From positions 653,012-717,011 of the forward strand of contig NZ_FOTC01000002.1 in NCBI RefSeq assembly GCF_900114455.1: a stretch of 64,000 bases of DNA, read 5' to 3'. The stretch's first letter is position 1, and each line of letters opens with the position of its first letter. Under the pieces are notes generated by a model that saw only the letters and a list, made by a program, of their open reading frames with translations, searched no databases and had not been told where the DNA came from. Of the stretch, positions 2,323 to 4,937 are shown piece by piece. The translations under genes were made by a program, and so were the position numbers. The stretch comes from Halogranum rubrum. GTDB taxonomy: Archaea > Halobacteriota > Halobacteria > Halobacteriales > Haloferacaceae.

Positions 2323-2982
2323 ATGACGACTCTCGACAAACACGCGGATATGCAGCGACTCGTAGACAGCGGCGTCGTCGCCGTCATGCGCGGCGCGGAC
2401 GCGGACACGGTCATCGACGTCGCCGACGCCCTCCAGAAAGGCGGCGTCACGGCTATCGAACTCACCGCCGACACGCCCGGCGTGATGGACATGATTTCGG
2501 ACGTCTCCGCGTCCTTCGGCGAGTCGGAAACCATCATCGGCGCGGGAACCGTCCTCGACGGCGAGACGGCCCGTTCGGCCCTTCTCGCGGGTGCGGAGTT
2601 CGTCGTCTCGCCTACGTTGGAGGAGGACGTCATCGACGTCGCCAACCGCTACGGCAAACTCGTCGCACCGGGCGTCATGACGCCCACCGAAGCGCTCCGC
2701 GGCTACGAGCGCGGCGCGGACTTCGTGAAGGTGTTCCCGGCGTCCTCGCTCGGCCCGGGTCACATCAGCAGCATCAAAGGTCCGCTCGGGCAGATTCCCA
2801 TCATGCCGACCGGCGGCGTCGACGTGGACAACGCCGCCGACTTCATCGAGGCTGGGTCCATCGTCGTCGGTGCGGGCAGTGCGCTCGTCGACAACGACGC
2901 CGTCGAAGCGGGCGACTTCGAGGCCATCACCGAACAGGCACAGCGGTTCTCCGACGTCATCGACGACGCTCGCGGCGAGTAG
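2323..2982 (+). CDS. 2-dehydro-3-deoxyphosphogluconate / 4-hydroxy-2-oxoglutarate aldolase family protein
   Basis: A 219-residue class I aldolase of the Eda family. The Schiff-base lysine is Lys136 in DFVKVFPASS, the general base is Glu46 in TAIELT, and the phosphate-binding MPTGGV segment is present. The family splits KDPG into pyruvate and glyceraldehyde 3-phosphate at the end of Entner-Doudoroff-type sugar breakdown, or splits hydroxyoxoglutarate. The substrate in this organism is not settled by sequence; haloarchaea often also carry an unrelated KDPG aldolase, so this may be a second enzyme. The start was chosen by TATA spacing. It stands alone with its own promoter. Confidence 0.85.
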   Translation: MTTLDKHADMQRLVDSGVVAVMRGADADTVIDVADALQKGGVTAIELTADTPGVMDMISDVSASFGESETIIGAGTVLDGETARSALLAGAEFVVSPTLEEDVIDVANRYGKLVAPGVMTPTEALRGYERGADFVKVFPASSLGPGHISSIKGPLGQIPIMPTGGVDVDNAADFIEAGSIVVGAGSALVDNDAVEAGDFEAITEQAQRFSDVIDDARGE

Positions 2983-3153
2983 CGGAGAGCAACGAGCGAG
3001 GAGAGCGTCGCCGCGTACTCCGTCTCGCCCGTCTGGCGGCGACGGTCGTTTCCTCGGACTACTCGCACGTGGTGTGTTTTATTACGACTGGTCGGATAGG
3101 GTGATTCATACTCTGTTGGACGCAACTCGTATCCAACCCTCGAATCAGAAACC

Positions 3154-3996
3154 ATGACTGTAATCACGATTTGGTCAGAGAGCGGTGGCGTCGGGAAGAC
3201 GACGACGACGCTGAATCTGGCCGCTGCACTCGGCGAACAGGGGAAAGACGTACTGATAATCGACTTGGACCCGCAACCGGCGAGCATCACGGACCACGCC
3301 GGCTATCAAGACGCGAAGAACGGGGACGTCGAGGTCACGCTGTCGGACGTCTTGCTCGACGACGACGTCGGCCTCTCGGAGGTCATCATCGAAGACGAAC
3401 TGTTCGACTTGGCCCCGGCACACGAGTCGCTCGCGTCGCTCGAAACGACGGTTCGAGCCCAACAGATCTCCACAGCCGAGTTCCTACTTCGGTCGAAACT
3501 CGCAGAGATCGAAGACGAGTACGACTACATCCTCATCGACCCGCCCGCCACGCTGAACCTCTTGGTGGACAACGCCCTCATCGCGAGTGGCAACGTGTTA
3601 GTTCCGATGGAGATGACGCGGAAGGGCGAGCGCTCCATCGGCGGTGTCGTCGAGACGGTCACTGCCATCGAGTCGCAACTCCAGCGCGCGCAACCGGACT
3701 TCTCGCTGAACGTCATCGGCGTCCTCCCGAACAAAGTCGACGGGTCGATTCTGAACCAGGAGATTCAGGGGTCGTTGGAGGACGTCGACGGCGTCGAGGT
3801 GCTCCCCATCACCATTCCGAGTTACAACGTGATGGAACAGGCGTGGGACGCCCACCTCGACATCTTCCGGTACGCCGAACACGACGACTACGGTCTGCGC
3901 AAATATCAGGAGTCGCTCTTGGACGCGTACCGTGACCTCGCGACGCTCATCATCGAGTTGGACGCCGACGACGAGACGGAGGCGGTGGTCTCGTAA
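3154..3996 (+). CDS. ParA/MinD-superfamily P-loop ATPase lacking the signature lysine
   Basis: A 280-residue ParA-like ATPase. The deviant Walker A motif is SGGVGKTTTT with the catalytic Lys15 present, but the 'signature' lysine that precedes the two glycines is replaced by Ser10. The A' motif (LIIDLDPQPA), Walker B (YILIDPPATL) and a C-terminal helical region are present. ParA-like ATPases position plasmids, chromosomes or protein cargo by forming ATP-dependent dimers on DNA or membrane. The stop codon shares one base with the start of the next gene, an acidic protein, so the two should be translated together. No parB or centromere-like repeats lie nearby, which argues for a cargo-positioning or membrane role. 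Confidence 0.85.
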   Translation: MTVITIWSESGGVGKTTTTLNLAAALGEQGKDVLIIDLDPQPASITDHAGYQDAKNGDVEVTLSDVLLDDDVGLSEVIIEDELFDLAPAHESLASLETTVRAQQISTAEFLLRSKLAEIEDEYDYILIDPPATLNLLVDNALIASGNVLVPMEMTRKGERSIGGVVETVTAIESQLQRAQPDFSLNVIGVLPNKVDGSILNQEIQGSLEDVDGVEVLPITIPSYNVMEQAWDAHLDIFRYAEHDDYGLRKYQESLLDAYRDLATLIIELDADDETEAVVS

Positions 3997-4532
3997 TGTC
4001 GAAGAAAGACCGGTACTCGCATCTCGGCGGCGACGCGGACGAGGAAGAGACGTCGGACGAACCGGAAGCGGAGACGACAGTCGACGAGGAGGAAGCGGAC
4101 GAACCGACCCAAGAAGCCGAAGCCAGTGAAGAGGTGGAAGCCGAAGCCAGTGAGGAAGTCGAAACCGAAGCCGAATCCACCGAAGAGGTGCAGAACGACT
4201 CTCCCGACGAGACAGCGAGCGACTCCGTCGACGAACCCGAGAGAGAACCCGCCGACGAACTCGACGACGGGGCGATTCGGGTGACGATTTCAGACGGCGA
4301 CGAGGAACACGAAGTCGTCATCGACGCGGACGAAGGCGTGACGACGGACGACGTGGTACACGCCGTCCAGCACGCCGGGCAGGAAGCGGAGACGCCCACG
4401 ACGATGTGGGGGAGTTGGGTCCGGATGGCGTCCTCGCTGGGGAAGGCACGCCTCGCCGCGGTGACCGTCGCGAGTCTGCTGACGGTGAAGGGGTTGACGA
4501 TGGTGGTCCGACGGTTCAGACGGCGAGACTGA
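3996..4532 (+). CDS. acidic low-complexity protein coupled to the ParA-like ATPase
   Basis: A 178-residue protein whose first ~95 residues are almost entirely Asp, Glu, Ser, Thr and Ala, with a repeated ASEEVE unit near residues 42-65. A short folded segment follows (about residues 97-130, beginning AIRVTISDGD), and then a C-terminal hydrophobic helix (about 148-170) ending in a basic FRRRD tail. The layout suggests a disordered arm tethered to the membrane by its C-terminus. It starts on the last base of the ParA-like gene (TAATG), so it is probably its functional partner. No known family was recognised; the partner role is inferred from coupling only. Confidence 0.75.
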   Translation: MSKKDRYSHLGGDADEEETSDEPEAETTVDEEEADEPTQEAEASEEVEAEASEEVETEAESTEEVQNDSPDETASDSVDEPEREPADELDDGAIRVTISDGDEEHEVVIDADEGVTTDDVVHAVQHAGQEAETPTTMWGSWVRMASSLGKARLAAVTVASLLTVKGLTMVVRRFRRRD

Positions 4533-4589
4533 GAGAACACCCTATCGCCCCACTGAGCAGTTAAGTCGACGGCGAGCGACCACCTCGGT

Positions 4590-4937
4590 ATGCCCGGCAT
4601 CGTCTTCTTCGCGACAGAGAACCACGACGCAGTCGTCGACTTCTACACCACCGTCGTCGGCGCGGAGACGTGGCTCGAACAGCCCGACTGCACGATTCTC
4701 AAGCACGACAACCTGCTTTTCGGCTTCTGCGCCCGCGACCACACCGACGACGGTGGAACCGTGACCTTCGTCTACGACGCTCGTGATGCAGTCGACGCGA
4801 TGCACGAGCGCGTCGGCGACGCCGCTCGTGAGGAACCGCATCTGAACGAGAAGTACGACATCTACCAGTTCTTCGCGGACGACCCGGACGGCCGCGCGGT
4901 GGAGTTTCAGGTCTTCGAAGACGGTACAGATCTGTAG
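4590..4937 (+). CDS. VOC (glyoxalase/bleomycin-resistance fold) family protein
   Basis: A 115-residue single-domain protein with two beta-alpha-beta-beta-beta modules. The first is around FATENHDAVVDFYTTVVG; the second carries the typical ending DPDGRAVEFQVFED, whose Glu is a usual metal ligand of the fold. Family members include glyoxalase I, dioxygenases and resistance proteins, and the substrate here is unknown. A weak TATA-like GTTAAG lies about 30 bases upstream of the ATG. Confidence 0.8.
   Translation: MPGIVFFATENHDAVVDFYTTVVGAETWLEQPDCTILKHDNLLFGFCARDHTDDGGTVTFVYDARDAVDAMHERVGDAAREEPHLNEKYDIYQFFADDPDGRAVEFQVFEDGTDL

Follow-up and report, generated by a model that had tools for sequence, protein, structure and literature searches.

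A lysine-less ParA-like ATPase and its coupled acidic partner in Halogranum rubrum: a possible positioning pair with roots in a haloarchaeal partition family

The closest described counterparts of the gene pair considered here are ATPases of the ParA/MinD superfamily and the small proteins that accompany them. The beta-type-1 McdA proteins carry Ser at the position of the ParA signature lysine, in the motif SGGQGKT (table in PMC9178275). Partners of A/D ATPases present a charged, disordered N-terminus to the ATPase, leaving the remainder of the protein for the cargo (PMC10241942, PMC12204374). We compared these systems with two coupled genes found in a 64,000-nucleotide stretch of Halogranum rubrum DNA (the window).

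The gene pair and its described counterparts

The first gene (3154-3996; both genes and all features within them are on the + strand) encodes an ATPase of 280 aa with the N-terminus MTVITIWSESGGVGKTTTT. Because it gave strong matches to the Pfam profiles AAA_31 (E 6.7e-37) and CbiA (E 1.4e-20), we assign it to the ParA/MinD superfamily; a ParA-type domain is present, as are the conserved acidic residues, with K15, D37, D39 and D129 invariant. Its Walker A motif is deviant (E9-S10-G-G-V-G-K15-T16; 3178-3201, in SESGGVGKTT): codon 10 (3181-3183, AGC) specifies Ser at the position where ParA has its signature lysine, and the P-loop Lys15 (3196-3198) is retained. A ParA-like ATPase of this description had been proposed from the sequence alone, and the ORF translation and the Pfam matches bear it out. 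The second gene (3996-4532) encodes a partner of 178 aa and overlaps the ATPase gene by 1 bp, the A of TAATG belonging both to its own start codon and to the ATPase stop codon. The partner is 30% Asp plus Glu and 8% Lys plus Arg, so the coupling of the ATPase to an acidic, low-complexity protein also held.

The pair is like McdAB in having Ser at the signature position and a small partner without similarity to ParB. It differs in that no carboxysome genes occur among the neighbours examined in four lineages of the pair, in that its partner is rich in Glu and Asp whereas McdB is rich in Gln, and in that its ATPase has no obvious large insert in its 280 aa and is placed in a haloarchaeal clade. 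The ParF-ParG and ParABS systems resemble the pair in that a ParA-type ATPase precedes a small partner whose N-terminus is charged, but we found no ParB domain, centromere-like repeat or ribbon-helix-helix in the window pair. MinD and FlhG belong to the same P-loop superfamily; however, the window ATPase scored only 58 bits against the NCBIfam archaeal MinD model (cut-off 201.75) and inspection of its C-terminus revealed no membrane-targeting helix.

The pair can also be compared with haloarchaeal ParA systems that have Ser or Ala at the signature position, such as those of pNATPE01 of Natrinema pellirubrum and of Haladaptatus caseinilyticus plasmid unnamed1. These have the non-lysine Walker A, K157, E153 and a coupled acidic partner, which in one branch begins with M-x-K-x-D-R-Y as does the window partner. 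They differ from the window pair in that their partners possess a conserved C-terminal domain and several lie beside orc1/cdc6; the nearest branch also has AGATATCT-like iterons upstream. We found no published description or name for this clade in the open literature, most subscription journals lying outside the scope of that search.

Loss of the signature lysine across a haloarchaeal clade

Our searches, which covered about 390 Halobacteriales genomes together with plasmid records, placed the window ATPase in a large haloarchaeal set with the motif [ST]E[SA]GGxGKT. Many members are plasmid-borne, and several are found beside orc1/cdc6 or at the start of a plasmid record. When 65 ATPases were placed in a tree, the 58 distinct non-lysine sequences formed a single clade (support 95/88; the raw count of 59 included one duplicate of the window sequence). 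Nested within it, the window sequence and those of six other genomes made up a clade of their own (100/100), which was sister, with moderate support only (81/70), to an 18-member SESGGVGKT group. The window ATPase thus has the tree position of the clade as well as its Ser10, E153 and K157, and the window pair has both the coupled acidic partner and the M-x-K-x-D-R-Y tag of the S-type branches. Almost all ATPases of the clade are followed by an acidic ORF that overlaps by 1 or 4 bp or is nearly adjacent; partners are acidic throughout this family, and the window partner is not special in that respect.

The sequence-only reading had taken Ser10 as a pointer to McdA. We reject it as an McdA hallmark: position 10 is Ser or Ala in all 58 clade sequences and Lys in 36/36 KGG-type sequences. 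As loss of the lysine is clade-wide, Ser10 should not be taken as a sign of a carboxysome-type cargo. Two residues in the segment E153-M-T-R-K157-G158 (3610-3627) go with this loss. K157 is found in 58/58 non-lysine sequences versus 0/36 of the KGG type, and E153 in 58/58 versus 2/36. Some members of the clade have as little as 31-38% identity to the window ATPase, so the invariance of K157 implies constraint, while its correlation with Ser/Ala10 is not independent evidence because both may trace to a single evolutionary event. In McdA, a different lysine stands in for the lost signature lysine, and in the haloarchaeal clade K157 is a candidate for such a replacement. That the signature lysine is missing throughout the clade, always alongside Lys157, makes the role of Lys157 testable.

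Other variants were seen among these ATPases. The SGGPGKT group (L036, L037, L076-L080, L082) and the SGGEGKT group (L074, L075, L081) are further non-lysine branches with GPGKT and GEGKT P-loops, respectively, each with its own partner variants. In the KGG-type haloarchaeal ParAs (L126-L155), too, a small ORF is coupled downstream; its product often begins with an Arg-rich sequence (e.g. MSDESRANRLRSRRRAAKER) and is apparently a different type of partner.

Partner architecture and possible contacts with DNA

Alignment of the seven window-family partners shows a common plan. It begins with an invariant M-S-K-x-x-R-Y-x-H-L (M1, S2, K3, R6, Y7, H9 and L10), which in the window copy is part of the tag MSKKDRYSHLG (3996-4028). 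There follow an acidic low-complexity linker of variable length that is predicted to be disordered on the evidence of the alignment and a structure model (4029-4271), a small beta-beta-alpha segment (RVTISDGDEE...; 4272-4391) conserved in all seven proteins, and a variable hydrophobic tail (residues 153-171 in the window copy, with the basic end RRFRRRD; 4452-4529). The structure model of the window partner is of low confidence (pLDDT 55), with strands at residues 93-100 and 103-110 and a helix at 117-132 modelled at pLDDT ~66-77 and the tail below 50. The window partner matched no Pfam family above cut-off, its low-confidence model found no match with Foldseek, and PDB profile searches with both the window-family and the plasmid-type partners gave no significant match.

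The 32 plasmid-type partners that we aligned begin with one of two short motifs, M-x-K-x-D-R-Y or MKSGASDPF, according to the set of branches, and have a common C-terminal domain (RR..VK.DR ... LDVREA..AGL ... GYG). This C-terminus was modelled as three helices at pLDDT ~90, with no PDB match. The window partner does not share those helices, and the window-family partners have no C-terminal domain of this type ending in GYG/GYD. The beta-alpha-alpha layout of the plasmid-type partners prompted us to consider a ribbon-helix-helix as a candidate fold for them; Foldseek returned no match (best E 1.9). In a profile-profile comparison the two partner types aligned over residues 1-9 only (HHalign probability 11, E 0.0027); since this score is weak, we base their kinship on the presence of the motif at the same terminal position beside related ATPase genes. 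The tag of the window partner is likely to contact the ATPase and, on the model of the A/D ATPase partners, the window family would have kept that contact and changed its cargo end.

The hydrophobic stretch of the window partner has a Kyte-Doolittle mean of 1.91 over 19 aa, and the same measure gave 0.63-1.35 in the window-family relatives. The C-terminal hydrophobic helix and basic tail described in the sequence-only reading are therefore real in the window copy but are not a family trait: among the seven partners the strong TM-like helix with its basic tail is confined to the window copy, and the Haloglomus tails are short and weakly hydrophobic. Tail hydrophobicity in the window, G051 and G382 partners (1.22-1.91) is greater than in all 50 plasmid-type partners (maximum 1.14), so that three of the four lineages have tails above every plasmid-type partner. 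As one copy alone has the strong helix with its basic tail, and the tail model is of low confidence, a role for the partner as a membrane tether is a weak suggestion.

Three ACAGATATCTGT-like palindromes lie directly upstream of a sister ParA pair in the same genome (C8:825891; L092:6757-6819, equivalent to G000:C8, ~825,756-825,818). Such sites precede 17/18 sister-clade parA genes and are a candidate haloarchaeal partition site. In the 220 bp upstream of parA they number 33 in 17 sister-clade regions versus ~1.9 expected from shuffles, the own-genome sister that was the source of the motif (L038) being left out of the count. The seven window-family upstream regions contain none, in a search with a motif from one clade, applied to regions that are GC-richer, which would miss a different centromere. 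We saw no other iterons or notable repeats beside the window-family genes, where an unrelated or distant site would escape the search; the absence of a centromere-like repeat at the pair, remarked on from the sequence alone, was confirmed to this extent.

The ATPase itself differs from its relatives in residues 216-230 (VLPITIPSYNVMEQA; 3799-3843), within which Soj R218 presumably maps; the sister ParAs have a basic stretch here, VRKRDVLKEA, and Soj has IPRNVRLAEA. R218 is important for DNA binding by Soj (PMC3778016). The mean number of Lys plus Arg in this interval is 0.29 in the window family, 4.0 in the sister group, 3.7 in the KGG type, 1.7 in the Ala type and 1.0 in the SGGPGKT type. The basic stretch has been lost from the window family, which is suggestive of a loss of DNA binding by the ATPase but is no proof of it, because the SGGPGKT and Ala clades are also low. 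The lack of parB at the locus, offered earlier as an argument for a non-DNA role, is correct as an observation but was rejected as evidence: a search of the whole window genome returned no ParB_N domain, which makes its absence from the locus uninformative. This multi-replicon genome (G000) has 16 CbiA/ParA-like and 12 Orc1/Cdc6 matches over cut-off and apparently manages without ParB.

These features bear on whether the pair could be a chromosomal system for DNA partition or locus anchoring, in which the partner, as a diverged centromere-binding protein, would use its beta-beta-alpha segment to contact DNA while the ATPase moved or tethered a chromosomal site. The low-confidence model is compatible with DNA binding by that segment, which may occur; all of the close relatives examined have a plasmid-type partner, and in both Haloglomus and G051 the main chromosome carries the pair. 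The nearest orc1 matches are 130-750 kb from the pair, a distance that is not decisive because in several genomes the largest replicon carries sister systems as well, at ~190-230 kb from orc1. However, the window partner has no plasmid-type C-terminal domain, iterons are missing, the ATPase has lost its basic stretch and the pair is absent from two congeners, and we consider partition of this kind unlikely, if still deserving of attention.

Distribution, selection and the possible cargo

Window-family ATPases were found in the window genome, G051, G382 and four Haloglomus genomes, amounting to seven genomes from four genera and three families, and in 4/392 genomes of an evenly drawn set. The pair is thus rare and sporadic among haloarchaea. 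All seven genomes have the ATPase together with its coupled partner, and every genome matched by the partner profile carries the ATPase; the G382 partner was too diverged for the profile search but is present downstream of its ATPase. Finding the same kind of coupled partner in 7/7 genomes makes the coupling more than chance, and the two genes that were proposed to act together are conserved together in other haloarchaea. The genes flanking the pair differ among genomes, and none of the neighbours in four lineages is conserved beyond Haloglomus; we therefore rejected a conserved neighbour as the cargo.

Two congeners of H. rubrum (G202 and G380) lack the pair. The stretch missing from the matching site (2982-4558) is a two-gene indel between the genes for a KDPG aldolase and a glyoxalase-like protein. 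In G202 the sequence matching 1164-2981 is joined to that matching 4559-4918 with 21 bp between, which constitutes an empty site, and in G380 the flanking genes are separated by a 336-bp spacer of other sequence. A search for a target-site duplication at the indel ends revealed no shared word longer than 7 bp. The empty site may reflect either acquisition of the pair by the window genome or its loss from the congeners. An empty site and a sporadic distribution are what might be seen if a plasmid partition cassette had integrated, lost its function and begun to decay, but the ORFs are intact in seven genomes of four genera, the catalytic residues are kept and, within Haloglomus, the ATPase and partner genes have dN/dS values of 0.12-0.22 and 0.31-0.40, respectively. 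Both genes are under purifying selection there, and decay is a very improbable explanation.

The insertion-like distribution could also suit a module for interference or incompatibility, a chromosomal pair acting, by poisoning or titration, against incoming plasmids with ParA partners that bear the M-x-K-x-D-R-Y tag. That tag is common to one group of plasmid-type partners, and the orphan ParA ParI, which acts in incompatibility, provides a precedent (PMC9178275). Against this, three genomes with the pair (G051, G318 and G382) contain no further ATPase that scores E 1e-40 or better, which means that a close target is not required. The partner also has a conserved beta-beta-alpha segment of its own and is under purifying selection, which points to a separate task. 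We regard interference as improbable.

The reading that we prefer, with a probability of about one half, is that the two genes encode a self-contained A/D ATPase positioning pair, descended from the lysine-less haloarchaeal partition family, whose adaptor would bind a cargo other than a plasmid, perhaps a membrane or hydrophobic body. Dimers of the ATP-bound ATPase would occupy a surface, the nucleoid or something else, and the partner would touch them through its MSKxDRY tag, prompting ATP hydrolysis and release, while the far end of its acidic linker would carry the cargo. In the plasmid relatives that far end is the conserved C-terminal domain, presumably seated on iterated sites upstream of parA. 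In the window pair it would be the beta-beta-alpha segment and hydrophobic tail, and with such a cargo end the cargo is probably a membrane patch, hydrophobic inclusion or protein assembly rather than a plasmid. Given the altered C-terminus of the partner, the lack of iterons upstream and the loss of the basic stretch from the ATPase, a non-plasmid cargo is the most economical reading. The sequence-only reading had arrived at a non-DNA cargo by way of McdA and parB, reasons that proved weak; its conclusion is made plausible instead by the missing C-terminal domain, the lack of iterons, the lost basic stretch and the two-gene indel far from orc1.

The neighbours of the pair that we examined identified no cargo. 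A PHA granule was raised as a candidate by the hydrophobic tails and set aside, as we found no evidence for it. A bolder proposal, which we advance tentatively, is that an archaeal McdAB-like system evolved separately from a plasmid-partition cassette by replacement of a partner domain, the tag being kept, a membrane or hydrophobic body being gripped and Lys157 taking over from the signature lysine. If true, a DNA-partition ATPase would have been re-aimed by a change at the cargo end of its partner alone, providing a tractable case in archaea, where cargo positioning has been little studied.

A separate arrangement was seen on a plasmid of Halarchaeum sp. CBA1220 (L165:3492-7486), where a ParA gene and a small partner are followed by genes for the rod-determining factor RdfA and an archaea-specific SMC-related protein, an order that may connect partition with cell shape.
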